A DNA stretch of 64,000 nucleotides, taken from the NCBI GenBank assembly GCA_020072585.1, contig JAIQGL010000030.1, positions 62,001 to 126,000 of the forward strand, written 5' to 3'. Origin of the DNA: Terriglobia bacterium (GTDB taxonomy: Bacteria > Acidobacteriota > Terriglobia > Terriglobales > Acidobacteriaceae). A program made the translations under genes and the position numbers. Shown here piece after piece: positions 3,001 through 46,964 of this stretch. How positions within the stretch are numbered: position 1 is the first letter of the stretch; each line of letters opens with the position of its first letter. Below the pieces are notes generated by a model. It ran no database searches, had not been told where the DNA came from, and saw only the letters and a list, made by a program, of their open reading frames with translations.

Positions 3001-6000
3001 GTAACGCTGATCAGACCGCTGTGCAGCCGGGAAATATGGTCCGGCGCAACCAGTTGCACGATGGTCGGAGGAGTCTTGTCAATATTCAGCGAAATGCTGC
3101 CAGTGCTCACGTTGCCGGCAACGTCAGCAGCTTGTCCGGAAACGTTCTGGTTTATTCCTTCAGTCCCAACGAGGCTGGGCTGCGGGCAGATGGCCACGCC
3201 GGAGAGCGCGTCGCTGCAAGCAAAAGTCACGGTGACATTACTGTTGTTGAAACCTGCACCATTCGGCGGAGGCGCAGCTGTCGCGGTCACCAGCGGCGGT
3301 GTCTTATCGATCTTGAGGGAGGTGGTGACTCCGGCCGTGTTGCCGGCTTTATCCACGGCCTGTCCTGTGACCTCAACATTTGCTCCCTCGGTTGAAACCG
3401 TGGCCGGCGGAGGACACACAGCAATGCCGGAAAGGCTGTCAGAGCATAGATAGCTCACCAGAACATCGGTGTTGTTCCATCCAGCGGCATTCGGAGCCGG
3501 GCTGGTGGAGGCGGTAATCAACGGCGCAGTCAGGTCAATGTTCACGGTAACGGACGTCTGCGCCGTGTTTCCTACAAGGTCTGTGGCCGTGCCCGTGGCA
3601 ACCTGGTTTGCTCCCTGCGTAGTAAATGTGACCGGACCGGAGCAGGTTGCGACGCCCGAACCCGCGTCAGAGCAGACAAAGCTCACCGTGACCGCAGAGT
3701 TGTTCCATCCGGCGGCGGTGGGAGCCGGTGTGATGGTGCCGACAATCGTGGGCGGCGTGCGATCAATGCTTACCGTAACAGTGACTGCGGAACTGCTTCC
3801 TAAACTGTCTGTAGCCACCACGTGAATGATCTGGCTGGGACCAGCGCCAAGAACCACTGGTTGCGACGTAAACATCCCTGATTGCACTGAAGCCGCTACG
3901 CCTTCCACGGCAACCGTCACCGGCACGGCGGACACTACCGTTCCGGTAACAACTACTGAAGCTGCGTTGGTGAAAGCACCGTCGACCGGTTGGGTTATAG
4001 TGATCAGCGGCGCAACGGTATTCACGCTGAATGCAGTTGTAGCAGGAGCTGAAGGATTGCCCGCAAGATCGCTAATGGTGGCGGTAACTACATGAGCGCC
4101 ATCGCTCAGCGCAACGGCTGGCGACCCGGTGGCTCCCGTGGCCGTGACCGTAAACTCAGCAGTGTGATCAACGCCATCTATCAACAGCAGGAACTTCGTT
4201 GTATCAACGCCGCTGCCATCGTCAGAATAGCTGACCGTGATGGGAGGATGAGTGTTGTTCGTAAATCCACTGACCGAAGTGGTGGTCACACTAATTGTTG
4301 GAGCAATGGTATCCACCAGAAATGATTGCGGAACAATGTCAGCCGTATTTCCTGCCCGATCAACCACCGTAACCTCAACCTGGTGCGTGCCATCTGCCAG
4401 GGCGTCGCCCGGCAGCAAAGTTCCAGTCGCCAGCTGATCGCCCACGGTCATGCGATTGGTACGGTCCGTTCCATCCACGCGAATAGTAAACTTTGATGGA
4501 TCAACTCCGCTGCTGTCATCGTGGTACGTGACCAGGAATGTAGGTGTGGCGGTATTGATAAAGCTGGAGGCAGCCGGCGTTTGAATGCTGTACACCGGTA
4601 CGGTTGTATCCACTTGAAATGCTGAAAAGGCTGATGTGGTATTTCCGGCGCGATCCGTAACTTGTGCCCGCAAGTGATACGTACCGGCTGCAAGAGGATT
4701 CGCAGCGCTGATGGTGGCGGTTGCCTCAGCGGCTCCCAGCACGAACTGTGACGTAATCTCGGTCTCCGCATCGCTCCCCTGTTGCAGGAATATACGGATC
4801 GCGGAAGTGTTGATGCCCGATCCAGTATCGGAATAGTCCAGCATCAACGTTGGCTGGGTGGTATTGATAAAGGAATTATTTGCTGGGTTGGCAAATACGG
4901 CTGTAGGCGGCGTAACGTCCACCACAAAACTGGCAGAGACATCGGCGACGTTGGTGGCGCGGTCAGCCACCGTTACTCGAAGCTGGTGAGAACCCTCGGT
5001 CAGAGCGCCGCCGGCGGAGATTACCCCAGCAGTGGAGTCGCTGCCGATGCTGAACCCCGCGGTCACATCACTTCCATCCACAAACACGTGCACTGAAGCC
5101 GGATTGATACCTGAACCTGAATCAGAGTAATTTGCCAGCGCCGCTGGAGTCGTGGTATTCACCGGCCCCACAGGCGACGCGATGGTAAGGACTGGCTTGA
5201 TCGTGTCGATCAGGAGCGTGGTGCTGGCGTTCCCCACGTTTCCTGTCAGATCCGCAATCTGCGCTGTAATCGTGTGCGGCCCTTCAGAAAGCGCAGCCAG
5301 AGTGCCCGTAGCGCTGGTGGCCGTAACGGTAAGACCAGCAGTTTTGTCGATGCCATCCAGCGCGACATGCAGCGTGCTGGGATCAACGGTTTCGTTGACC
5401 CCGTACCTTACCTCCACCGGAGTGCTGGCCACGTTCAAGATGGCTCCGGCGGCAGGTTGAATGATGTGGATATCTGGCGCCGAGGTATCCACTGAAAAAG
5501 TGGAAGAGGCGTTTGCCGTGTTGCCGGCTTTATCTTTAATTTGAGCCGTGAGCGTGTGGGTTCCATCGGCGAGAATGGTTGTGCCGGTGACCAATGACGG
5601 CGTGGGAGTTACGGCAAGCGGGTTACCATCCACCGCCACTTGCAGCGATGTCAGGTCGATTGCCTGGTCATCCGTGAACTGCACGGAATATTCAACGTTG
5701 GATGAGCCATGGCGCGACGAGGGTAACGGATGCAGGATCGTAATCACCGGCGGCACGGCGTCCACGTTGAATGCGACGGATGCCGTCCCCTGGTTCCCGG
5801 CCTGGTCGCGAATGGAGGCCACGATCTGGTTCGCGCCCTGCCGCAAGTCAGTGGCAGGATTTAGAAGAGCTGTTGCCTGAGTGGTGGTAGCGCTGAACAG
5901 CGTGGACTTGTCTACGCCGTTAATCAAAACCTTCAGTGTTGCCGGATCAATGGGAAGATTGTCACTGTACGTAATCCTGGCTTGCGTGGCAGATCCATTC

Positions 6001-7154
6001 AGGAACGCTCCAGCAGCCGGCGTGACGATCTGAATCGTGATCGGTGTAAGGTCTACTTGGAATTGCGAAACCGCCTGGGCGGTGTTGGCGGCGTTGTCTT
6101 TGATGGTTGCGGTGAGCGTATGCGGCCCGGCGGCAAGCGCCATGGAGGCCGGCAAATCGGCGGTAGCTTCGTTCGGTCGCTTGGTAAAGAGACTGGTCCG
6201 GTCAATTCCGTCCAGCAGGACCTTCAGTGTCTCAGTATTTATCCCGGATGCGGCCGGCTCTCCCACGCCCGTCAAATCGTTATAGGAAACCACCAGATGC
6301 GGGGTCGCCGTGTTGACCGCGGCGCCGTTTACGGGCGCGGTAACGGCCAGCTGCGGCGATGTGTGATCAGTATTTTGACCCAGCAGCGTGATGATCAGGA
6401 ACGAAGCTGGTTTGCTCGCCAGAGTCACGTGCAGGTTCGTTTGGGCGGGCAAGCTGACAGCACAGTCAACGCTGCCGACGTTCTCATTGAAAGCCAGGGT
6501 GTCGAGCACCGTAACGCCATTGATTTGGATGGTGGCGGAAGAAACGCGGTGTTTCTTGTTCTCATCGCCGTTCTGCACGTGCAGATAAAAGGGCTGTGTG
6601 ATCCAGGCTGGTACCGTGATTGCGGAATCAAACTGGTTCGGATCTCCGGTGGTCCGAACGTAGGTTCGGGGACCAAATATCTTGAAACCTGAGGCCACAA
6701 TCCCTGACGCCGGGGGAGCGATATTGTCATCGTAGGAGTAATGGCGATGCCCGTGTTCGCCGTCTTCCCCATCGTGCTCGTCGCCATCGTCCCGGTCCGA
6801 TTTGGGCTTCGCGGAGTGCACTGTACAGTTTGAAGGTACATTCGAGCCGCCGTCATCCGGGCTGAGGGAATTGGGTGCAAAAAGGTTAGCGACTGCTGAA
6901 GACCCAATCGGGTGCAGTCCGTTTTCCAGGTTGCCGGCCGCGCTTCTTAATGAAGCGTTCACGCCCGCGACTGGATGCGCAAGCATTGGGCCAGGGGCTG
7001 TCGTGCCGATTTTGAGAAGAGAGTTCTGGACAGACCTTTGCCCTTCTGGAAGAGCCAATGACCACATGGAGGTCGCAAAGAAGCAATATGCCAGTAAAAG
7101 TGTCAGCGCTTTTCTAGTCATTATTCCCATCGAACTGTTTGCCGGACTCAGCAT
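1..7154 (-). CDS. Giant secreted Ig-like repeat protein, N-terminal ~2380 aa, 3' end beyond window (partial)
   Basis: Minus-strand reading frame stays open from about 7154 to base 1. It is missing from the ORF track because no stop lies in the window. N-terminus reads MLSPANSSMGIMTRKALTLLLAYCFFATSMWSLA (signal peptide; Met at 7121 is an alternative start), followed by a D/H/E-rich patch, many 'V.D..GN.S....F.VD.T.P' Ig-like repeats, and a ZU5-like 'GGGTVTGSGGVELRIPEGAL' stretch. Confidence 0.88.
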   Translation of the reverse strand, partial: MLSPANSSMGIMTRKALTLLLAYCFFATSMWSLALPEGQRSVQNSLLKIGTTAPGPMLAHPVAGVNASLRSAAGNLENGLHPIGSSAVANLFAPNSLSPDDGGSNVPSNCTVHSAKPKSDRDDGDEHDGEDGEHGHRHYSYDDNIAPPASGIVASGFKIFGPRTYVRTTGDPNQFDSAITVPAWITQPFYLHVQNGDENKKHRVSSATIQINGVTVLDTLAFNENVGSVDCAVSLPAQTNLHVTLASKPASFLIITLLGQNTDHTSPQLAVTAPVNGAAVNTATPHLVVSYNDLTGVGEPAASGINTETLKVLLDGIDRTSLFTKRPNEATADLPASMALAAGPHTLTATIKDNAANTAQAVSQFQVDLTPITIQIVTPAAGAFLNGSATQARITYSDNLPIDPATLKVLINGVDKSTLFSATTTQATALLNPATDLRQGANQIVASIRDQAGNQGTASVAFNVDAVPPVITILHPLPSSRHGSSNVEYSVQFTDDQAIDLTSLQVAVDGNPLAVTPTPSLVTGTTILADGTHTLTAQIKDKAGNTANASSTFSVDTSAPDIHIIQPAAGAILNVASTPVEVRYGVNETVDPSTLHVALDGIDKTAGLTVTATSATGTLAALSEGPHTITAQIADLTGNVGNASTTLLIDTIKPVLTIASPVGPVNTTTPAALANYSDSGSGINPASVHVFVDGSDVTAGFSIGSDSTAGVISAGGALTEGSHQLRVTVADRATNVADVSASFVVDVTPPTAVFANPANNSFINTTQPTLMLDYSDTGSGINTSAIRIFLQQGSDAETEITSQFVLGAAEATATISAANPLAAGTYHLRAQVTDRAGNTTSAFSAFQVDTTVPVYSIQTPAASSFINTATPTFLVTYHDDSSGVDPSKFTIRVDGTDRTNRMTVGDQLATGTLLPGDALADGTHQVEVTVVDRAGNTADIVPQSFLVDTIAPTISVTTTSVSGFTNNTHPPITVSYSDDGSGVDTTKFLLLIDGVDHTAEFTVTATGATGSPAVALSDGAHVVTATISDLAGNPSAPATTAFSVNTVAPLITITQPVDGAFTNAASVVVTGTVVSAVPVTVAVEGVAASVQSGMFTSQPVVLGAGPSQIIHVVATDSLGSSSAVTVTVSIDRTPPTIVGTITPAPTAAGWNNSAVTVSFVCSDAGSGVATCSGPVTFTTQGANQVATGTATDLVGNTAQTSVTVNIDLTAPLITASTSPAPNAAGWNNTDVLVSYLCSDSLSGIAVCPPPATVSTEGANVEVTGQAVDKAGNTAGVTTSLKIDKTPPLVTATAAPPPNGAGFNNSNVTVTFACSDALSGVAICPQPSLVGTEGINQNVSGQAADVAGNVSTGSISLNIDKTPPTIVQLVAPDHISRLHSGLISVTANDNFSVAQVVISVNGTVLGTFTGAPYQTTLQVPVGSNPGDTLTVTALATDAAGNTQTATRGVRVAADGVVVGQVLSDVTSFPIQGATVQMIGATSTTDQTDSRGRYSLPASDSHSFVVVSNSSPATTAVEREVFVQEGVGTVPVDARLTPLAAPVAMGASGLTLNAGNIEVQAPAGAALPATTFQLTPISGQGLPGLLPLGWSPLAALDLRASSAAANLSATFTHLPNTTAHLVFYNPALHAWTMVASSLLPVSGSLNVVLPSPGAYALVVADVVNPPIAIPAAGDPLLGVTVQLLAPDATSSGSLNPAIVPPSGGTAIATLGIQSQSYVPSGTVIQANVSEKFSLKSGDAVSEESRSEDIILYSALAPANSAMGALFPVTPARTFGNTELLAGKVHLDILAGREGVRGQPGGSDPLTLSDGTSTLSVPGGALSDDTAISVESTTLEDFIPVSSTLSALQEILVDFSGETLNTPAQLSISASGLNPADAFLLTKVERLDGVPHIVTVALAQINGTNLISVSSPGLPGVTTGGEYVFYEISAPIGFAQGTVSSSAGPVQALVQTDSLPIVAISGQNGQYIVPALAGTANLRASAPHTALAGSASVNISAGQTALANIVLVGVVTNAVVAPADGALGVPVSTVISVTTTAPLNPQSILQSNLVLLKGTAASGQMVAVQPFVLSSSGTTLSFAPQTNLDPAAQYTIQVSGLADIFGGAVVVPVSTFTTKAVTPLNFDPNKITFSFPDENGDINVTAPAGALPPGTKLLIVDQTNGIVLSLTAFNDGSVTGKFPGTVNDVLLITVTSPLGETVTFTRSQFVAPDGTVAVGSGGGTVTGSGGVELRIPEGALNQAATFKIETFGPDLFPERPDLLGGTFGGGLKITSPEKPTFKKEVKLVFPKPADAPDGAFFYVYRRMTNTDGTVTFQTIDHGLVEGDGAAAKVVTASPPFSGYSDSYGNLASIGGVGGFVINSLADQHFTLMWTFEKFLIGVASQDIIVGK

Positions 7155-31631: not shown

Positions 31632-31706
31632 TGGTAGCGCTACCGGGAATCGAACCCGGGTTTTAAGATTGAGAATCTCACGTCCTAACCCCTAGACGAT
31701 AGCGCC
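31632..31706 (-). tRNA. tRNA-Glu (CUC anticodon)
   Basis: GGCGCUA UC GUCU..GGAC U-stem UGAGA/UCUUA, loop UUCUCAA (CUC), CCGGG-UUCGAUU-CCCGG T-arm, encoded CCA. G1-U72 is the only acceptor wobble. Confidence 0.95.
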
Positions 31707-31707
31707 A
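31667..31707. repeat. attL core (41-bp direct repeat)
   Basis: gattgagaatctcacgtcctaacccctagacgatagcgcca, identical to 46924-46964; covers tRNA 5' half through the anticodon arm. Confidence 0.93.
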
Positions 31708-32842
31708 TCAATGACTTACGGACTTTCTTTGGTGATTTTTTCACTAATGTTTCACTTACGGGCTGTACCGTGGTGGCTTCCAAGCGGCGCATGGCGCTAG
31801 ACACATCATCGGTTGAAACGATGTGGTAACGGTCAAACACGCTGCGCGTTTTGTGGCCACTGATTCGCATTGCTACCCGTTCGGGAACACCGGCATTCAC
31901 AAGGTTGCGTATCGCTGAGCGGCGCAAATCGTGAATGATTAGACCCTTGTACTGCGGGTCGTGTGGTTTGCCCGGCACGTCGATAATAATTCCAAGTCCA
32001 GCGCCCGCGCAAGCCTTGCGCCATTCCTTTGTGAGATTCACGGCGCTGAACGCCTTTCCTTCCTTGGGCGTTATTTCCTCAAGCATGTTTACCAGCACAC
32101 CCGGCATCGGCACATTGCGTGCTTCGTCACCCTTCGTTTGCTCTGCCTCAAGGCGTATGATGCGGCGGTCCAAGTCCACCTGTGACCATTCGATTTCCAG
32201 AGCTTCACCCAAGCGCACACCGCAGTAGTAAAGCAGCGTTACCAGCGGGCGCAGGTGCGACGGTAACAGCCCCGCAAGCTGTTCAAACTTATCCAGCGGC
32301 AGAAACCCCTTACGGGCGGGCGGTTCCTTCAGCAAACGAATCACAGGCACGAATTGCAGCTTGCCATCTTCGTGAGCAATGCGCAGCATACGACGCAAAG
32401 CAGAGAGTGAACGATTGATAACGGCGTTGCCCATTCCTTCCACTTGGCGCTGGCGCACAAACTCCCTGGCTGCGTCCGTCGTAATCAGCGATACAGGTAC
32501 GCCCGGCGCATCTGCGGAGAAACTGAAAAACTTGTCCAACGGTTTCAGGCTTGGGATGCCTTCGGTGCCGTCCGCATACGTGTGCAGCGATTTGTTACCA
32601 CGTTCCATGTAATTGGACAGCAACGCGGCGCGCAGATCGCCGTAGTACACCTTTTTGTCCGGCGCTGCAAAACCTCTATCACGGTCACCCATTAACCGGC
32701 GCAACTCGCCTAGTGCTTCCTGCCGTACTTTTGTTTTGGTGCTCACGCGTATCTGACGCCCGGCTTGATAGAACTGTGCGTACCAAACTTTGCACTTCCC
32801 TATCCGAATCAGCGACCCTTCACCCTTAGCACGCCTTGCCAT
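31685..32842 (-). CDS. int: Tyrosine recombinase/integrase
   Basis: 385 aa; 'YYCGVRLGEALEIEWSQVDLDRRIIRLEAEQTKGDEARNVPMP' and 'HDLRRSAIRNLVNAGVPERVAMRISGHKTRSVFDRYHI' (catalytic R...HxLR...H...Y). Confidence 0.95.
   Translation of the reverse strand: MARRAKGEGSLIRIGKCKVWYAQFYQAGRQIRVSTKTKVRQEALGELRRLMGDRDRGFAAPDKKVYYGDLRAALLSNYMERGNKSLHTYADGTEGIPSLKPLDKFFSFSADAPGVPVSLITTDAAREFVRQRQVEGMGNAVINRSLSALRRMLRIAHEDGKLQFVPVIRLLKEPPARKGFLPLDKFEQLAGLLPSHLRPLVTLLYYCGVRLGEALEIEWSQVDLDRRIIRLEAEQTKGDEARNVPMPGVLVNMLEEITPKEGKAFSAVNLTKEWRKACAGAGLGIIIDVPGKPHDPQYKGLIIHDLRRSAIRNLVNAGVPERVAMRISGHKTRSVFDRYHIVSTDDVSSAMRRLEATTVQPVSETLVKKSPKKVRKSLMALSSRG
31708..31720 (+). repeat. 13-bp terminal inverted repeat, left copy
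   Basis: TCAATGACTTACG; reverse complement CGTAAGTCATTGA at 46882-46894. Confidence 0.7.
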
Positions 32843-33088: not shown

Positions 33089-33400
33089 ATGGAACCCGCA
33101 AAGGGTGACGCCCGTCTGCTTACCGTCAAAGAAGCAGCAACATACCTTGCATCTACCGTGTGGTTTGTGCGCAGTCTCGCATGGGAACGGCGCGTACCGT
33201 TCTTGAAGCTGGGTAAACGCGTGTGCTTTGATCGCGTGGACCTTGATAAATTCATCGAACAAGAAAAATCAGCGACCAAGAAAACAGCAGAGTACGACAA
33301 CATCTTACGGCCAGGGAACCACGAAACGCCAGCGACGGCGCGTGTGCGACCTTTAGGTGACGTTAGTTTTGTCCCGGCACAAAAGCAGGTGCGGCAATGA
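33089..33400 (+). CDS. Excisionase/MerR-like helix-turn-helix protein
   Basis: 'LLTVKEAATYLASTVWFVRSLAWERRVPFLKLGKRVCFDRVDLDKFIEQ' matches the HTH_17/excisionase pattern. Confidence 0.85.
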   Translation: MEPAKGDARLLTVKEAATYLASTVWFVRSLAWERRVPFLKLGKRVCFDRVDLDKFIEQEKSATKKTAEYDNILRPGNHETPATARVRPLGDVSFVPAQKQVRQ

Positions 33401-35451: not shown

Positions 35452-36201
35452 TTGACAAAGAGTCTGACTGCAACCATTGCCGAGTATGTATGTATCCAGT
35501 ACTACATAAGCTTGGCAATCATTGCCAACATTCTGACCGAAGATTTCCGAGTAAGGGAGAACGAAGTGAATTGCAAAGAGGCACAGGCGCAAGTTAAGGA
35601 AAAGGCATTCGGTAAATACCATTTCAGGGCAGCGCAGCTATTAACCAGGCTGGTAAATGCCACGTATAGCCCTACGGATGCGGCGCGGGACATTGAAGGT
35701 GTACCTATTAAGAAGAAAATAGCCACTATTCAAGGCTGGCTTAACGGCATCGGAAACCGGCAGCTTTTCAATCTGTTTTCTCAGCTTGAAGAAGTTACCG
35801 TTACGAAGCGGGTGCCGGGTTGGATTACAGTGGTGCTGAACCTAGAACCACTCAAGACGGCAGAAAAGGCTACACACAAGGCCAAGCGTACACTTGCACA
35901 ACGTGCAGCAGACCGCGCTAGTAAGGCGCGGCAGACCTATGCGGAGAAGAGAAAGGCTGCACGTTTGACAGACGCGGCCACAGCCATGCGGGAACACAAA
36001 GAAAGATTCTTTGATACCGTGCTCAAAAGTGGATACAGCGCGGAAACGCTGCACAAACATGGTTCACTGATTAAGGCAGAAACGCCAAAGGCCGATACCG
36101 TGGAGGACAAATCAGCCTCCCCGCTAAAGCCCTTGCCCGTTGCACCTGTGCCGGTGGTGCACACAGTGCGCCGTGGTCCTATCAAGGTCGCCGGGCAATG
36201 A
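35452..36201 (+). CDS. Hypothetical element protein (start uncertain)
   Basis: 249-aa ORF overlapping the next gene by 4 nt; Lys/Arg/Ala-rich helical C-terminus. Confidence 0.5.
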   Translation: MTKSLTATIAEYVCIQYYISLAIIANILTEDFRVRENEVNCKEAQAQVKEKAFGKYHFRAAQLLTRLVNATYSPTDAARDIEGVPIKKKIATIQGWLNGIGNRQLFNLFSQLEEVTVTKRVPGWITVVLNLEPLKTAEKATHKAKRTLAQRAADRASKARQTYAEKRKAARLTDAATAMREHKERFFDTVLKSGYSAETLHKHGSLIKAETPKADTVEDKSASPLKPLPVAPVPVVHTVRRGPIKVAGQ

Positions 36202-36857
36202 CGCGCCAGGTTGCTAACGAAGTCAGCGCCACCCGCGCCCGCCTAGTCGCAGCCGCAAAGAACACTGCGCCGGTCACGCGCCGGGCGGCAGCACAAATGT
36301 GCAACGATCTGAGACAGTGGTCCACGTGGAAGCTGGAAGGTTTGGAGCTGCCCAGGTTGCCGCGCCGGATACGCGTAGGACTTGCAAAGCCCGCACACAG
36401 TGCAAAGAAAGTATCTGCGTCCAACTTGGACGCTCATAGGTTAGAAAAAATAAATTCGGAAAACGTGCAAAAACAGAAACCAGCCGCTACTAAGTTGTTG
36501 GGCGGGGCACTTCCAACACAAAAAATGTTGGAATACCTGGCCGCTGATTATGGCGTGTGCATTGCAATCGCAATGGCCATCACGCACAGCGACCAAACGG
36601 CGGAAGAAGTAGTGTCCGAGTGTACCGCGTCGGCTGTTGAGCAAATACAGGCCGGGAAGGTCCGCGCTGACAACGCCGAAAAGTTCCACGCGTGGCTGCA
36701 CACGATTGTGCGCCGCAACGCAATGCGCCGCGCCGGTCAGTCTGAAAGCACGTTCGTTGAATATGTTGAACAAGGCACCAGCGTTGACTTTGGATGCACA
36801 GAGTTCGACCACGCCCGCGTGTGGGGAACCGGCAAAGGTATGCCCCACGCAGAGTAG
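36198..36857 (+). CDS. Sigma-70 region-2-like protein without recognisable region 4
   Basis: 'IAMAITHSDQTAEEVVSECTASAVEQIQAGKVRADNAEKFHAWLHTIVRRNAMR' resembles the ECF sigma2 pattern. Confidence 0.55.
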   Translation: MTRQVANEVSATRARLVAAAKNTAPVTRRAAAQMCNDLRQWSTWKLEGLELPRLPRRIRVGLAKPAHSAKKVSASNLDAHRLEKINSENVQKQKPAATKLLGGALPTQKMLEYLAADYGVCIAIAMAITHSDQTAEEVVSECTASAVEQIQAGKVRADNAEKFHAWLHTIVRRNAMRRAGQSESTFVEYVEQGTSVDFGCTEFDHARVWGTGKGMPHAE

Positions 36858-37145: not shown

Positions 37146-38597
37146 ATGTCTTTTGTAGTTATTTCGATGGACGATAGCAGCGCCGTTGCTTGCTCTGAAG
37201 ATCGCGCCGGTATCGGCGGCGGTCCTGATGGGACACCCTTTGTTCTTGTGCCGGGCAACCACATAAAGAGCTTTGCTGTAAACCCGCAAATGCTTTTCGC
37301 CATCGTTGGACGCGTGACCGCAGCCAATGCAGTGAAACGCGCCGTTGCTGCGCTGGGCCACTTCAGCTTCGCACGGCTGGCCGCTATCATTCCGGCCATT
37401 GCAAGAGCGGCGCGTGACCAAGAAGGCGCAGGCGCAAGGTTGAACATGTCGCTTGCAGGTTGGGACGCAGAAGCCCAGAAAATGCGCGCCGTGATTTGGA
37501 ATATCTGGGGCGATCAAGACGACCACAAGCAGATTGATGTGGAACCCAAGCGCGGCGGCGAACGCTGTTATTGGGTTCTCGGTTCTAGTGAAGAAGCGCA
37601 AACCATGGCGCTTAATCTAATGGTTGGCGCAAAGGTTCCCGATGCCTTCGCAGGCGTTTTTGCAAAGTTGTCAGACAGGTTCCCGGAGATTGGAAACGTT
37701 CTTACCGTTAACGCGGTATCGCGTCCCACAGGTGGCATATGCCGCGTGCAAGATTTGACCGACGGTGCTAGCTACGTTAAGACACCGCCCAACCAGGTGC
37801 AATATATTAGCGCCACGACCGGCAAGGTTCCGGCGTCAACAATGCTTAATACCCAAGGCGCGATTGTTCCCGCCGTGGGTGTGCCTGTAACAGTTAACCT
37901 ATCGCCAACTTCAATAGAAGTTGTAACAACGAACCAAACGCGGTGGTTTGGCGACGGCGCGACTATCACCGTGCTGGCTACGGACACAACATTTTCAGGT
38001 CTAGCCAATAGCACCACGTACTACCTATACATGCGTTATAACGTAGTGACTGGTGTTATTTCTTTTGGTCACGGCGCGGGAACACCACCGACAAGCCCTA
38101 GTTCGCAGTTCGCTGCCAACTGCTCTTTTGATGGGTTTTCACCGCTGGGCTTGTTGATTATTACAACACAAGCATCGGGCGGCACTGGTGGAAGTGGCGG
38201 CGGTTCATCTGATACCGGCGGCTGCCCATCGGGTGATGAACTTGTGAACGTGCAGGGCCGTGGCGTGATTGCGGCGCGTGACGTTGTGGCAGGTGATTTA
38301 ATCCTTGGCGAGAACCTGGCAACGGGTGAAGACGTTTGGCGGCGCGTAACCAGCGTTGAAAAACGGCCTAATTCCACCTGGCGAATCGTGGATGGTCACC
38401 GCGTAACGCAGAGGGAAACCATTTGGTACAACGGCGCATGGGTGCCCGCGTACACAGTGTCGAAAGAAATTGACGTTCGAGTGGGCTGCACTTGTTTCAT
38501 AGCTGTTGAGGCAGAGACACATGACGACCACAATTACCGACTTGTCGGCGGTGAGCGTAGTTTAACAATACACAATCCGATTTTACCAAGGTCGTAA
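37146..38597 (+). CDS. Ntn-hydrolase-like N-terminal domain with C-terminal Hint (intein-like) domain
   Basis: Within ORF 36867..38597, ATG at 37146 (MSFVVISMDDSSAVACSEDRAG) follows the structured leader. The C-terminal 'GGCPSGDELVNVQGRGVIAARDVVAGDLIL...VDGHRVTQRETIWYNG...SLTIHN' is Hint-like. Confidence 0.7.
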   Translation: MSFVVISMDDSSAVACSEDRAGIGGGPDGTPFVLVPGNHIKSFAVNPQMLFAIVGRVTAANAVKRAVAALGHFSFARLAAIIPAIARAARDQEGAGARLNMSLAGWDAEAQKMRAVIWNIWGDQDDHKQIDVEPKRGGERCYWVLGSSEEAQTMALNLMVGAKVPDAFAGVFAKLSDRFPEIGNVLTVNAVSRPTGGICRVQDLTDGASYVKTPPNQVQYISATTGKVPASTMLNTQGAIVPAVGVPVTVNLSPTSIEVVTTNQTRWFGDGATITVLATDTTFSGLANSTTYYLYMRYNVVTGVISFGHGAGTPPTSPSSQFAANCSFDGFSPLGLLIITTQASGGTGGSGGGSSDTGGCPSGDELVNVQGRGVIAARDVVAGDLILGENLATGEDVWRRVTSVEKRPNSTWRIVDGHRVTQRETIWYNGAWVPAYTVSKEIDVRVGCTCFIAVEAETHDDHNYRLVGGERSLTIHNPILPRS

Positions 38598-38600
38598 TCA

Positions 38601-38951
38601 ATGTCAGTAAAAGTGTGGATGCTATCGCAATTCTACGTGGATGATAGTTTGGAAATTCATCCACGTTCACAAATGCACCCAGTTGCGCATGACTACGCTG
38701 ACGAAGATCATACACCCGTCCGTCCTATTGATGAGGATGGCTGGGCGCTGGTTAAAGTCACAACAGATCATGAACGTATTGCACTGGCCAAGCAAGACTC
38801 GCGCATTGTTTACGTGGGTACGCCATGGAACGCGCCGCCCGCAAAAATGCTGGAAGTTTACGCAGACAAGCTGGGCAGCGACACATATTCTATGGTTGGT
38901 CAAGTGCTACTGAAATTGGCAGAGACCGAACCGTTGTACCTACCGCAATAA
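38601..38951 (+). CDS. Hypothetical element protein
   Basis: 116-aa ORF tightly following the Hint gene in the same orientation. Confidence 0.5.
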   Translation: MSVKVWMLSQFYVDDSLEIHPRSQMHPVAHDYADEDHTPVRPIDEDGWALVKVTTDHERIALAKQDSRIVYVGTPWNAPPAKMLEVYADKLGSDTYSMVGQVLLKLAETEPLYLPQ

Positions 38952-38978: not shown

Positions 38979-40433
38979 ATGCCAGTAGTTCCTGCAATAA
39001 CCTTCGGTCAAAGCCCAGCGGGCTTACCGTACGTCCGCCCTAATGTGGGCGCTTTTAATCTGCGTGGCGCTTGGGATTCCGCAACCGTGTACACGTCGTA
39101 CGACGTTGTAACATTCGGCGGGTCGGTCTATGCGGCGCGCATCAGTAACGTGAACGTCACACCCGGCACATCGGATGCAAATTGGATGCAGATTATCCCG
39201 GCGTCTGCGGGCGTCACTAGCGTAGCTCTCACGGTGCCCGCTATTCTTTCCGTAGCGGGTTCCCCGATTACCACCAGCGGAACCCTTGCGGTGTCCCTGG
39301 TAAACCAAGCGGCAAACAAGGTGTGGTCTGGGCCGACTACCGGAGCGGATGCAGCGCCTACGTTTCGTGTGTTGGTTGCCGCTGATTTACCAACGGTCAC
39401 CACGGCAAAAGGCGGCACGGGCGTAGACCTATCCGCAAGCGGCTCTACAACGGCGTTTCTTGCACAGGATGCAAGTCATGTAGTGTCGGCCAGGGCGATT
39501 GTTGCTGCTGATTTACCAGTGGTCACTCTAGCAAAGGGTGGTACCGGCGTAGATTTGTCGGCAAGTGGCGGCACCACAAAGATTTTGGCGCAGGACGCCA
39601 GCCACGTAGTTTCAGCGCGTGATTTGGTGGGTGCAGATTTACCAGCACCGGGAGCTTCGTCCAAGGGCGGAGTTTTCAGTAAAGCCGCTGTGTCACATCA
39701 GTTCTTAACATCAATCGGCACTGATTCGTCCATAGGACAGGCGCAACCTGCATTCTCGGATATTTCCGGTAGTGTCGCTGCATCGCAGTTGCCGAATCCT
39801 AGCGCAAGTACGTTGGGCGGTGTGGAATCCATCGCGGCTGTTACGCATAATTTCTTAACATCAATCAGCACCAGCGGAGTTCCTGCGCAAGCACAGCCAG
39901 CGTTGGCGGACCTAAGCGACGCTTCCACAGTTGCCACGTTGTCGGGTTCGCAGACGTTGACGAACAAGGTGTTAAACGGTGCAGGTAGCGGCAACAGCGT
40001 TAATCTGTTGGACTTCCAAGGCCCACTGTCACCGATAACTGGTGATTCAACAGACCACACAATGTTTTCGTACGTCATACCTGCCAACACGATTCAAACA
40101 GGCAAAGGAATTTCAATAAAGTGCGTATTCCAGCACACCACAGGCAGTAGCTCTGTCACGTACAAACTCATACTTGGCAGTACCACACTGTTTTCGATTG
40201 GTGACGCGGGCACGTCTTTGATTACAACGGATGCAGAGATGTTCGCTAATGGTAACCAGACCACACAGGTAGGGTCTATACATGGCAGTGACGGCGCTAC
40301 GATAACGATTAACAACTTGCTTACATCCGGCGCAGAGAACTTGGCCAATGCCTTGACTTTGAAGTGGACATTCAACGTTGCGAACACGAACGCAGTAACG
40401 CCTTCGCTATTCGTTGTGAAGCTGATTCAGTAA
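38979..40433 (+). CDS. Phage tail-fibre-like protein
   Basis: 'NLRGAWDSATVYTSYDVVTFGGSVYAARISNVNVTPGTSDANWMQI' (carbohydrate-binding-like) plus repeats 'LAKGGTGVDLSASGGTTKILAQDASHVVSARDLVGADLP'. Confidence 0.7.
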   Translation: MPVVPAITFGQSPAGLPYVRPNVGAFNLRGAWDSATVYTSYDVVTFGGSVYAARISNVNVTPGTSDANWMQIIPASAGVTSVALTVPAILSVAGSPITTSGTLAVSLVNQAANKVWSGPTTGADAAPTFRVLVAADLPTVTTAKGGTGVDLSASGSTTAFLAQDASHVVSARAIVAADLPVVTLAKGGTGVDLSASGGTTKILAQDASHVVSARDLVGADLPAPGASSKGGVFSKAAVSHQFLTSIGTDSSIGQAQPAFSDISGSVAASQLPNPSASTLGGVESIAAVTHNFLTSISTSGVPAQAQPALADLSDASTVATLSGSQTLTNKVLNGAGSGNSVNLLDFQGPLSPITGDSTDHTMFSYVIPANTIQTGKGISIKCVFQHTTGSSSVTYKLILGSTTLFSIGDAGTSLITTDAEMFANGNQTTQVGSIHGSDGATITINNLLTSGAENLANALTLKWTFNVANTNAVTPSLFVVKLIQ

Positions 40434-40490: not shown

Positions 40491-41111
40491 TTAGTTAAAG
40501 CCCAGCGGTTGCTGCCAAAGATCGTCGCAGCCCTGGATGCTTCCAGTAACTAGTTTGCATGACGCAAGGAAACCCCGCGCTGGTACCGGCTCTGGGTCGC
40601 GGGTCAAAACAACTTCCCACGTCGAACCGTTTTCCATTGCAACGATAGAGCCGAATGCTCCGTCGCTCGAAATGAAAAGCGCGGCATGGTCTGCGCACTG
40701 CGGCGGCGGGAATTGGTCGGGCGGCGGCATTACAGCACACAACCCTTCAGAAACATTCTGCTGAGTCTCCGTACCTGCACCTGTAAAGTTAAGTTGATAC
40801 GTACCACGTCCTGCAATGCTCTGCGGGTTGCCGTCAGCGCGTTCATTGGATGACATGCTATGTAGAATCCAGTTACCAGCGCCGTCGGCAATGGCCCAGC
40901 CGTGCTCATAGAACGGGCGTGTTCCGTTGGCATTGTTGCCGTGGCCGACAAAAAGATATTTACCGTAAAACCGCGAGTTCGGGTCTGTTGTTGGTTGCGC
41001 GTGAACCGTTGTGGTGAAATCACCACCGCAGCCGGTGAAAAGAACAGCAAATAGCGTGACACACGCAATGAGTGATTTAATAGTCCTAGCCGTCATATTT
41101 GGGCGCTCCAT
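40491..41111 (-). CDS. Putative lipoprotein carried by the element (possible moron)
   Basis: 'MTARTIKSLIACVTLFAVLFTGCGGDF' lipobox-like; opposite orientation to flanking virion genes. Confidence 0.6.
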   Translation of the reverse strand: MERPNMTARTIKSLIACVTLFAVLFTGCGGDFTTTVHAQPTTDPNSRFYGKYLFVGHGNNANGTRPFYEHGWAIADGAGNWILHSMSSNERADGNPQSIAGRGTYQLNFTGAGTETQQNVSEGLCAVMPPPDQFPPPQCADHAALFISSDGAFGSIVAMENGSTWEVVLTRDPEPVPARGFLASCKLVTGSIQGCDDLWQQPLGFN

Positions 41112-41307: not shown

Positions 41308-41394
41308 ACATACAGTGTATAGACAGTGTGCATACCTGTCAACAACTATTTTTTAACCCCAAAGAATCAACGATATACAAGGAGCTTTAACCCA

Positions 41395-42681
41395 ATGATG
41401 AAAGCAATTAAAGCGGTCGCGGGCGAGGTTAGAGACTTCCTCAACTCGTTTTCTTCACCTGATAACGCACTCGGCATGTGGGGTGGTACGCCAGCCACAG
41501 CCGGTGTAAGCGTAACGGAAACCAGCGCCCTGCAATCTCCGGTAGTCTTTGCATGTCACCGCATTCTATCTGCACTGTTGGCGAAAACGCCTCTGCATGT
41601 TTACGAAAAGCTACCGGGCGGCGGGCGCACCATTGCGGAGAATCATCCGCTTGAAAAGTTATTCACCTGGCGCGCAAACGATGAAATGAGTGCGTTCGAG
41701 TGGAAGGAAGTTGCGCAGGTCCACTTGGTATCACGCGGGAACCATTACAGTAAGATCGAGCGTGACGGTATGGGCCGCACGGCGGGTCTTTACCCGCTAT
41801 CACCGTTCAATTGTTCGCCGTACCGCGACATGAGCAACGGGCAGATTGTTTACAAGTTTACGAACATCAACGGGTCACAGCAGAGCATTCCCGCAGCGGA
41901 CATCCTGCACATCAAGAATATTTCCCTTGAAGGTTTGGTGGGTCTGACGCCCATTCAACAGTATGCCAAGGAAGCAATCGGATTGGACATCGCGTTGCAG
42001 GCGTACGGTTCGCGGTTCATTGCGCAGGGCGGTTCAGCGTCTATGGTTGCCACGTTCAAAGGCAAACTTGACCCGGCAAAGCGCAAACAGTATGAGAAGG
42101 ATTTAGTACAGGCGCACAGCGGAGTCAATGCACATACCGCTATAGTGATGGACCAGGAAGGTGACATAAAAAACCTTTCTATCTCGCCGGAAGAAGCGCA
42201 GTTCCTTGAAACTAGGCAGTACCAAAGAGATTTAATCTCTGAATGTATCTACGGTGTGCCATCGCATTTAGTAGGCGGTCATGAGGAAACTAAAGCAGGC
42301 ATAGGTGAGCAACAATCAGCATTGTTGAGCAACACAATGTCGTCATGGTTTGCGCGGTGGGAGTCGGCATTGAATGCCAAGTTGCTGCCCGCTGGTGGTA
42401 AGTACGAAATTGGCTTTGACACCACTGAGATGGACTCGTACCGCATCATGGAAACGCTGAAGACCGTGACAGCGGCGAGACAATGGGGCATTGGCAGCGG
42501 CAACGAAGGCCGAAAGTTAATCGGCTGGAATCCCTACAACGCAGGTGCGTCGAAAGACCCAGCGGATAAGCTCTGGCGTCCTGTGAATATGGTTCCTATA
42601 TCGGAAGAATCTGAAAATATGTTGCCAGTTGCGCCGGGCACGGTAGTGGACAACAAAGCAGACGCGGCTGGTGACCAGTGA
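41395..42681 (+). CDS. HK97-family phage portal protein
   Basis: Within ORF 41326..42681, ATG at 41395 has an AGGAG-like RBS. 'SPVVFACHRILSALLAKTPLHVYEK...HPLEKLFTWRANDEMSAFEWKE...GNHYSKIERDGMGR' is portal-like. Confidence 0.92.
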   Translation: MMKAIKAVAGEVRDFLNSFSSPDNALGMWGGTPATAGVSVTETSALQSPVVFACHRILSALLAKTPLHVYEKLPGGGRTIAENHPLEKLFTWRANDEMSAFEWKEVAQVHLVSRGNHYSKIERDGMGRTAGLYPLSPFNCSPYRDMSNGQIVYKFTNINGSQQSIPAADILHIKNISLEGLVGLTPIQQYAKEAIGLDIALQAYGSRFIAQGGSASMVATFKGKLDPAKRKQYEKDLVQAHSGVNAHTAIVMDQEGDIKNLSISPEEAQFLETRQYQRDLISECIYGVPSHLVGGHEETKAGIGEQQSALLSNTMSSWFARWESALNAKLLPAGGKYEIGFDTTEMDSYRIMETLKTVTAARQWGIGSGNEGRKLIGWNPYNAGASKDPADKLWRPVNMVPISEESENMLPVAPGTVVDNKADAAGDQ

Positions 42682-43491: not shown

Positions 43492-43884
43492 ATGCCAAGG
43501 CGAGAGTGTTGCGAACCTGGTTGCAGAGCACTGACGACAGACACCCGCTGCCCCAAGCACACCAAGGGTGACAACAGCAACAAACGCCACGACCGCGCCA
43601 GGAACGCAGCGGACCCATTGCGCAAGCTGTACAGCACTGCAAGGTGGTTAAGAACACGGCATGACGCGTTGGTAGACAACCCTGTGTGTATGCGCTGCCA
43701 ACAACAAGCGGCGTCCGTTGCAGATCATGTGATTCCCGCGAGGGTTTATTGCGCTGGTGACCCAGAGCGGTTCTTTGATAGGTCGAACATCCAAACGCTG
43801 TGTGATGCGCCGCCGAATAGCTGCCACCATAGGAAGACCGGCGAGGATGTAACAAAGTACGGACTCATTGCAAAGACATGGTAG
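43492..43884 (+). CDS. HNH endonuclease
   Basis: 'CMRCQQQAASVADHVIPARVYCAGDPERFFDRSNIQTLCDAPPNSCHHRKTGED' HNH/CxxC pattern. Confidence 0.85.
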   Translation: MPRRECCEPGCRALTTDTRCPKHTKGDNSNKRHDRARNAADPLRKLYSTARWLRTRHDALVDNPVCMRCQQQAASVADHVIPARVYCAGDPERFFDRSNIQTLCDAPPNSCHHRKTGEDVTKYGLIAKTW

Positions 43885-44308: not shown

Positions 44309-45475
44309 ATGTCAGCATTGTTCGAAGTTCGTCAACGTCTCGCAGAGAAGCAAGACCAGATTACAGAGTTGTCCAAGTCCTCAACCTTTTCCGAAGCCAG
44401 GCACGCGACCTTAAAAGGCGAAATCACGCGGTTAGAGGCACAGGTACGGGCCATTGAAGAGAACGAAGCGCGCAACGGCGGGCCGGTTATCACCCGCAGC
44501 GCGTACATGCCGGAAGCCGATAGGTTAGAACTTGACCGCAGGGAACGCGCCGCGTTTGACATCGTATTGCGTGGCAAGCAAAACAATGCCCCGCGTGCTC
44601 TCCGCTCATATCTGCCCATGACAGACCAAACGACCGTCGGCGGGGCTTTTTTGGTTCCGGTAGGCGTAGGAGCTGACGTTAGTTCGAAGCTGGTTAGCTT
44701 TGGAAATTTAGCGTCCAAGGTAAGAATCTGGAATACATCTATAGGAGATGCCGTGTCATGGCCTACTGTAGACTCAACGGCAGAACCGGCAAACGGCCAC
44801 TTCATTGACGACAATGCGCCGTTCAGCCAGGAGAGCACGACCAATCCAGTTTTCGGACGCGTCCCTATCAACATAACTAAGACTTGGGAGTCTGGTCTTA
44901 TCCTTGCGCCTGCACGCTTGGTGCAGGACAGTGCTTTTGATCTGCTTTCGGTTTTGACCTATGAAGTAGCACAGCGCCAGTCAAGAGCCATTGACGATCT
45001 TGTAGTTAATGGAGACGGCGCGAGTACCGGTGTAGTCAATATTTCCGGCACCAACACACTTGCACAGGCTTCGCCCACGGCGATTACCTTTGCGGAAATC
45101 TGCGATCTGGAATCGAAGCTACAAGCTGGCTATAACGCTAATGCTTGCTATTGCTTCAATAGCAAAACGTACAGGTATCTCCGCGCATTGAACACCAGCG
45201 GCGTGAAGCACTGGGAAGCACAGGAATTTACCAACGGACTTATCAACAACAAGCCTTACCGGATTTCGGAATCCATGCCGGATATAGGCAGCGGAAAAAA
45301 GGCCGTGGCGCTGGCTGATTGGTCACAAGTTGTGGTCCGCATGGTGGACAGGCTGCGCATTGCCGTATTTAAAGAAATTTTCATGAGCAACTTAGAGGTC
45401 GGATTTGGTAGTTATCAGCGATTTGACTCCGCTGTGTTGCAGCCTTCGGCCATTGCGTTCCTGGCTGGCGCTTAA
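44309..45475 (+). CDS. HK97-type major capsid protein
   Basis: N-terminal coiled coil; 'YLPMTDQTTVGGAFLVPVGVGADVSSKLVSFGNLASKVRI', 'AQRQSRAIDDLVVNGDGASTGVVNI', 'FGSYQRFDSAVLQPSAIAFL'. Confidence 0.92.
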   Translation: MSALFEVRQRLAEKQDQITELSKSSTFSEARHATLKGEITRLEAQVRAIEENEARNGGPVITRSAYMPEADRLELDRRERAAFDIVLRGKQNNAPRALRSYLPMTDQTTVGGAFLVPVGVGADVSSKLVSFGNLASKVRIWNTSIGDAVSWPTVDSTAEPANGHFIDDNAPFSQESTTNPVFGRVPINITKTWESGLILAPARLVQDSAFDLLSVLTYEVAQRQSRAIDDLVVNGDGASTGVVNISGTNTLAQASPTAITFAEICDLESKLQAGYNANACYCFNSKTYRYLRALNTSGVKHWEAQEFTNGLINNKPYRISESMPDIGSGKKAVALADWSQVVVRMVDRLRIAVFKEIFMSNLEVGFGSYQRFDSAVLQPSAIAFLAGA

Positions 45476-45548: not shown

Positions 45549-46187
45549 ATGAACAGCACAATGGAACGCAGACTACAGGCGTCACGCATCGAATTGCGGG
45601 CGTCCAATGGACAGCCAACGCGCCTTGCCGGGTATGCTGCCCTTTTCGATTCACCCAGTGAAGACTTGGGCGGATTCACAGAGACAATCAAGCGGGGTGC
45701 GTTCAAGGATGCACTAGCCAGCGCCGGGCTGGATTGCCGCATGTTGTTTAACCACGATTCGAACATGGTATTGGGCAGAACGCCCGACACCTTGGCACTG
45801 CGGGAAGATAGCACAGGGCTGTACTTCGATTGTATGCCGCCTGATACCAGCTATGCCAAAGACGTGATGACGCTGGTTTCAAAAAACATCGTGAATCAAT
45901 GCTCATTCGGGTTCACCGTCGCGGCTGACGAGTGGTACAACAGCGCGGGAGAATTGGTTTCGAGATGGTCCGGCGTCAAGCGGGTCATCACAAAAATTGG
46001 AACCTTAATGGATACAAGTGTGGTGACGTATCCTGCGTACAGCTCAACGTCCGTTACTGCACGATCTGCATTCTTATTCCCTGGTGGAGTGCCTACCTTA
46101 AGCCTTGAAGATGCACGGCGGGAAGCGCAACGGTCCTTGGCGCGCAAGTTTTTGGAGCAATCCCGCAGCCGCGTCACCTGCCGGTAA
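45549..46187 (+). CDS. HK97-family prohead protease
   Basis: 'RLAGYAALFDSPSEDLGGFTETIKRGAFKDAL...CRMLFNHDSNMVLGRTPDTLALREDSTGLYFD...VNQCSFGF'. Confidence 0.92.
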   Translation: MNSTMERRLQASRIELRASNGQPTRLAGYAALFDSPSEDLGGFTETIKRGAFKDALASAGLDCRMLFNHDSNMVLGRTPDTLALREDSTGLYFDCMPPDTSYAKDVMTLVSKNIVNQCSFGFTVAADEWYNSAGELVSRWSGVKRVITKIGTLMDTSVVTYPAYSSTSVTARSAFLFPGGVPTLSLEDARREAQRSLARKFLEQSRSRVTCR

Positions 46188-46923: not shown

Positions 46924-46964
46924 GATTGAGAATCTCACGTCCTAACCCCTAGACGATAGCGCCA
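46924..46964. repeat. attR core (41 bp), truncated 5' half of tRNA-Glu
   Basis: Identical to 31667-31707; no tRNA 3' half follows on this copy. Confidence 0.93.

Follow-up and report, generated by a model that had tools for sequence, protein, structure and literature searches.

A predicted autoprocessing Hint domain at the end of a putative virion protein in a tRNA-integrated element of Acidobacteriaceae

The Hint gene and the 15.3-kb element

The window, that is, the whole stretch of 64,000 nucleotides analysed here, contains a plus-strand frame at 37146-38597 that is open over 483 codons, carries an SD-like AAGGGA upstream of its ATG, and encodes a product of 483 residues. The linker sequence ...ASGGTGGSGGGSSDTGG directly precedes Cys360 (38223-38225). 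An earlier note on this DNA had given the frame these coordinates, with Cys1 at 38223-38225 after a Gly/Ser linker and a domain ending in SLTIHN at 38576, followed by Pro at +1 and then only ILPRS; each of these statements matched the sequence exactly, and the stop comes right after the Ser. The gene and the two genes behind it are laid out as follows.

37146..37745, plus: N-terminal domain, residues 1-200; proteasome-like pattern S2/E18/R20/K41/G55/GSS146-148, low pLDDT, without homologs
37761..38180, plus: beta-rich domain, about residues 206-345, from alignments; also present towards the C-terminus of J-type tail proteins
38178..38222, plus: Gly/Ser-rich linker adjoining Cys1, kept in all relatives
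38223..38576, plus: Hint domain, Cys360 (Cys1) to His476-Asn477, from AlphaFold2, Foldseek and alignment
38577..38594, plus: micro C-extein PILPRS, last residue Ser; 5-8 residues in relatives, with Cys or Ser last
38601..38951, plus: 116-aa partner gene, starting 3 nt past the Hint stop; homologous ~113-aa gene in relatives
38979..40433, plus: tail-fibre-like protein, third cassette gene, with a weak CBM_5_12-like start

These genes lie in a 15.3-kb virus-derived element of a soil bacterium. The element is bounded by att repeats, and its other features are listed below.

31632-31706, minus: tRNA-Glu(CTC), overlapping attL
31667..31707, no strand: attL, a perfect 41-bp repeat lying at tRNA-Glu(CTC)
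31685..32842, minus: tyrosine integrase (PF00589 9e-18; phrog_1)
33089..33400, plus: HTH_17/excisionase-like protein, from profile matches
41326..42681, plus: portal protein (PF04860 5e-74)
43492..43884, plus: HNH endonuclease (phrog_144)
44309..45475, plus: HK97-type major capsid protein (PF05065 6e-28)
45549..46187, plus: prohead protease (PF04586 2e-39)
46924..46964, no strand: attR, identical 41-bp repeat, 15,257 bp from attL

A J-domain-like protein is also encoded between the att repeats, and genes for a large terminase, a tail tube or a tape measure were not found within the element. The head genes stand in an unusual order (portal, HNH, capsid, protease), and the portal is preceded by the tail-tip cassette. 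The gene at 36198-36857, which lies directly ahead of the Hint gene, encodes a protein with similarity to sigma-70 region 2 (E 5e-6), a possible element-specific regulator. On the opposite strand, a lipoprotein-like gene inside the element (40491-41111, minus) is possibly cargo or an exclusion factor. The portal shares 48% identity with its counterpart in a phage contig from the same genus (L082), which carries TerS and TerL; L082 also holds a gene at 5357-6220 that, judged by eye, resembles a 2-oxoglutarate/Fe(II) dioxygenase. Searches with the portal and capsid revealed no sister satellite in the viral contigs. Integrase, att repeats and an incomplete structural set are present as in a satellite, and a deleted prophage would have them too; both a satellite using a helper's packaging and tails and a deleted or defective prophage fit the element.

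Fold and conservation of the Hint domain

The window protein was modelled with AlphaFold2, using 12 relatives as the alignment. Hint residues 360-479 reached a pLDDT of ~77-98, and the best solved matches found by Foldseek were the BIL domains 6tmm, 6y75 and 2lwy, followed by inteins and the Hedgehog C-terminal domain 1at0 (E 1e-5 to 1e-3 overall). Because of the pLDDT and these matches, we take the Hint fold as established with good confidence, and on this model residues 360-477 are almost certainly a real Hint domain. The earlier note had proposed a C-terminal Hint domain and named a structure unlike Hint as grounds for dropping it; the model of residues 360-479 proved Hint-like, and Cys1 and HN are invariant. 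No Pfam, PHROG or NCBIfam model matched the whole protein, and no Pfam Hint model detected the isolated domain or its clade, so the domain is a divergent one.

Conservation was counted over 14 distinct close members, with the distant relatives L002, L007, L008 and L011 handled apart. The 14 members share a mean identity of 50% (minimum 37%; 37-69% within the Hint domain), and the median end branch of their tree is 0.62 substitutions per site. In the alignment Cys1 and HN were each present in 14/14, and the Gly-rich linker ahead of Cys1 occurs in all members. Block B, in contrast, reads T/S-x-x-E instead of T-x-x-H in 14/14 (T421-Q-R-E424 in the window protein, with Glu in place of His), whereas the His is retained in all four distant relatives. 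The domain therefore combines the Hint fold, Cys1, the C-terminal His-Asn and the lack of a +1 nucleophile expected of an A-type BIL with TQRE where TxxH is expected, and because the block-B His is absent we class it as BIL-like rather than as an ordinary A-type BIL. The proposal of a BIL-like domain that has HN but lacks a nucleophile at +1 finds support in both the fold and the conservation. An intein would lie within a conserved host protein and be followed by a C-extein starting with Cys, Ser or Thr; here the domain is C-terminal, the +1 residue is Pro, and the C-extein has 6 residues. The best reading is an A-type-BIL-like domain, predicted to be autoprocessing and to cleave at Cys1, and we consider it somewhat more likely than not that it is catalytically active. 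The change of the block-B His to Glu throughout the clade, along with the +1 Pro of the window protein, could also mark a retired Hint domain that serves tail proteins as a non-catalytic cap, structural or adhesive, its terminal Cys/Ser being used for folding or disulfides. However, the cleavage residues Cys1 and HN persist in every member at 37-69% identity, beyond the needs of a cap, and the Gly linker adjoining Cys1 is kept as well, which makes a retired domain rather unlikely.

The two ends of the C-extein behave differently. At +1 we found M, P, Y, W, G, L, Q, N, A or T, with a nucleophile in 1/14, so that the position appears essentially random in the alignment, and the C-extein itself is 5-8 residues long and divergent in both length and sequence. 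Its last residue is Cys in 10/14 and Ser in 4/14, including the window protein. The tree implies about three Cys/Ser changes and no third residue, most of its forks being weakly supported; the distant relatives end in Ser (L002), Thr (L008), Pro (L007) and Lys (L011). The absence of a +1 nucleophile had been noted correctly before, but the nucleophile conserved as the very last residue had been overlooked, as had the satellite context, the tail-tip cassette, the block-B His-to-Glu change and the conserved downstream gene. The terminal residue was also considered as a by-product of the next gene's ribosome-binding signals, an explanation we rejected: the codons differ (TGC, TGT, AGC, TCG) and the stop/start spacing varies, which makes selection on the residue more likely. 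The conserved terminal Cys/Ser is very probably a selected feature.

In the Hint fold, the two termini lie next to each other. Together with the terminal Cys in 10/14 members, this would suit a redox-gated cleavage, in which a disulfide between Cys1 and the C-terminal Cys silences the domain until reduction or exposure; the 4/14 that end in Ser, window protein included, are unable to form such a bond, and we regard this gating as improbable. The +1 Pro is shared with L012, and the ends of the two proteins, HNPILPRS, are identical although their shared halves are only ~37-40% identical. A fossil, that is, decayed tail debris of a defunct prophage that had become joined to an unrelated frame by chance, would account for the missing terminase, tail tube and tape measure and for an N-terminal domain without homolog, but is very doubtful given this shared end, the intact 483-codon frame, the perfect att repeats, and the intact integrase, portal, capsid and protease.

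The genome of the window encodes a second, distant Hint-terminated tail-like protein (L002, G000 contig C21:32236-32655) in a 1614-codon frame. It ends in HNFQPLS with an intact block-B TPGH, and possibly derives from another prophage.

The tail-tip cassette and its N-terminal partner

The C-terminal half of the window protein, beginning near residue 206, aligns with the ends of long proteins encoded in family genomes and viral contigs. The shared unit is a cassette of beta-domain, Gly-rich linker, Hint domain and short C-extein, and its beta-rich domain was modelled by AlphaFold2 with a pLDDT of ~72-92 across most of residues 241-340. The nearest named relatives are Acidobacteriaceae/Acidobacteriota MAGs, with which the search of family genomes groups the genome of the window itself; relatives were found only in Acidobacteriota genomes and in metagenome- or genome-derived viral contigs, with none among 50,697 GenBank phages. 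In the siphophage-like contig L035, tape measure, distal tail, tail protein and NlpC/P60-like (DUF6950) genes are followed by the Hint-ended one, which encodes a 1187-aa lambda-J-type protein with the cassette at its end (phrog_5616 8e-79, phrog_31 3e-41). In L080, from the host's genus, the cassette is carried by a Phage-tail_3/Rcc01698-type protein, a scaffold differing from that of L035, which ends in the same HNPILPRS as the window protein. The cassette is therefore modular, having at least three N-terminal contexts (L035, L080 and the window protein), and there is little doubt that the C-terminal half belongs to a cassette of Acidobacteriaceae phage tail-tip proteins. No J hub domain was matched in the window protein by Pfam or PHROG, and the open-access literature yielded no paper on Hint domains in tail-tip proteins.

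The partner gene behind the Hint gene is conserved as well. In relatives the ~113-aa gene begins only a few bases from the Hint stop; sequence comparison found it in L003, L005, L006, L012, L033-L036 and L038-L040, and its start motif W.LS...P...AY....P was seen after the L115-L120 Hint genes and in L037. Pfam/PHROG-type profile searches gave no family match for it. A homolog of the CBM-type fibre occupies the equivalent position in G154 contig 487.

For the N-terminal domain, the proteasome/Ntn-like character suggested earlier is a pattern of catalytic spacing, with no detectable homolog, profile match or confident fold. S2, E18, R20, K41 and G55 reproduce the spacing of proteasome T1, D/E17, R19, K33 and G47 with a 7-residue insertion, and Ser2 would be exposed once Met is removed. 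The 14-residue K-to-G spacing is that of 20S subunits (met by only 1/24 HslV sequences), and GSS146-148 stands at the place expected for GSG. The nucleophile-acid-Arg-Lys-Gly pattern, picked post hoc with the sequence already seen, had a frequency of 7.5e-5 in shuffles and occurred in 0/465 control frames. Searches for homologs by tblastn of phages, in two viral scans, and in 301 genomes of the family and 396 of the phylum turned up chance matches only; L043-L046 were examined as candidate relatives and proved to be such matches. There was no significant match to Pfam (PF00227 included) or PHROG, nothing above shuffles with HslV/proteasome profiles by HMMER, HHalign or global alignment, and no match to the phage proteasome homologs V22 ORF113 and PHROG 1040. 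The structure prediction that the earlier note had called for, read for the alpha-beta-beta-alpha fold of Ntn hydrolases, remained below pLDDT 50 in both AlphaFold2 runs (full protein; domain alone). On this evidence, the case for an Ntn hydrolase is evenly balanced. Because the domain has no detectable relative, we infer its virion role from the cassette alone. The phage proteasome homologs PPH and AAH have been reported (Fuchs, Alva and Lupas, PMC8665760), and in FC4 proteins a proteasome-like domain is joined to C-terminal domains resembling phage tail proteins (PMC8665760); a fusion of an N-terminal Ntn domain to tail parts would thus have a precedent. Fusion of Hint to proteasome-like phage homologs was unreported in the papers searched.

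Proposed processing and relation to known systems

Collectively, we lean towards a virion-type protein of a tRNA-integrated satellite or defective prophage, with a modular tail-tip cassette whose Hint domain would cleave at Cys1. Acidobacteriaceae phages attach the cassette to different J-type tail proteins, and here it is joined to a different, possibly proteasome-like N-terminal domain. After folding of the Hint domain, Cys1 would take the peptide bond ahead of it as a thioester, and the tail protein would be freed with a flexible Gly-rich C-terminus, or handed to a nucleophile. The terminal Cys/Ser of the clade's C-extein would be the obvious candidate for accepting it; alternatively, this residue may remain on the product once Asn has cyclised and the micro-extein has been ligated, a step proposed for A-type BILs. 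Where a member ends in Cys, its terminal thiol might take over the acyl group or act as an end tag kept after ligation, and could also serve disulfide bonding rather than acyl transfer. Whether cleavage or ligation happens, and which nucleophile serves, is something we infer.

By general chemistry, Pro at +1 would disfavour Asn cyclisation and ligation, which argues against C-terminal cleavage or ligation in the window copy and would leave N-terminal cleavage or no reaction as options. For this copy, which has Pro at +1 and ends in Ser, splicing is unlikely, cleavage at Cys1 being the likelier outcome. The block-B His assists the N-S shift, and because Glu replaces it in all 14 members, the first step could be slow, trigger-dependent or lost. 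In other inteins the loss of this His can be compensated (PMC6333167). A-type BILs form an N-terminal thioester and undergo Asn cyclisation and cleavage, with ligation possible by aminolysis, and cleavage dominates (PMC4031507). A bolder proposal, which we consider unlikely, is a new Hint subclass with the terminal Cys/Ser, not +1, as acceptor, by which phages and satellites would release or end-tag the proteins that contact the host through a new ligation route, the cassette being captured by satellites for their own particles.

An autoprocessing-type domain at the ends of tail-tip proteins hints at an unrecognised phage route to trim or join tail proteins. With an invariant terminal Cys/Ser and a free +1, a single residue can probe non-standard splicing or ligation, and a route of this kind might be useful for protein ligation. 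In a phylum that has received little study, the cassette also illustrates how parts for host recognition move between phages and satellites.

The element resembles phage satellites with capsid genes (cf-PICI-like) in its size of ~15 kb, tRNA integration, integrase and own head genes, and lack of a tail tube; unlike them, it has no TerL and keeps a tail-tip/fibre cassette. The N-terminal domain has the spacing of putative nucleophile, acid, Lys and Gly of phage PPH, AAH and FC4 (PMC8665760), but no significant similarity to HslV, PHROG 1040 or PF00227. With J-type tail-tip proteins (PHROG 31/5616; Phage-tail_3) the window protein shares the C-terminal cassette and a homologous downstream gene, whereas it lacks the hub domains of J and begins with a different N-terminal domain. 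A-type BIL domains are alike in Hint fold, Cys1, C-terminal HN, absence of a +1 nucleophile and variable carrier proteins (PMC4031507, PMC7765530); in contrast to them, the clade of the window protein sits at the very C-terminal end of phage tail proteins, has Glu as its block-B residue, and keeps a nucleophile as the last of the 5-8 residues of its C-extein.
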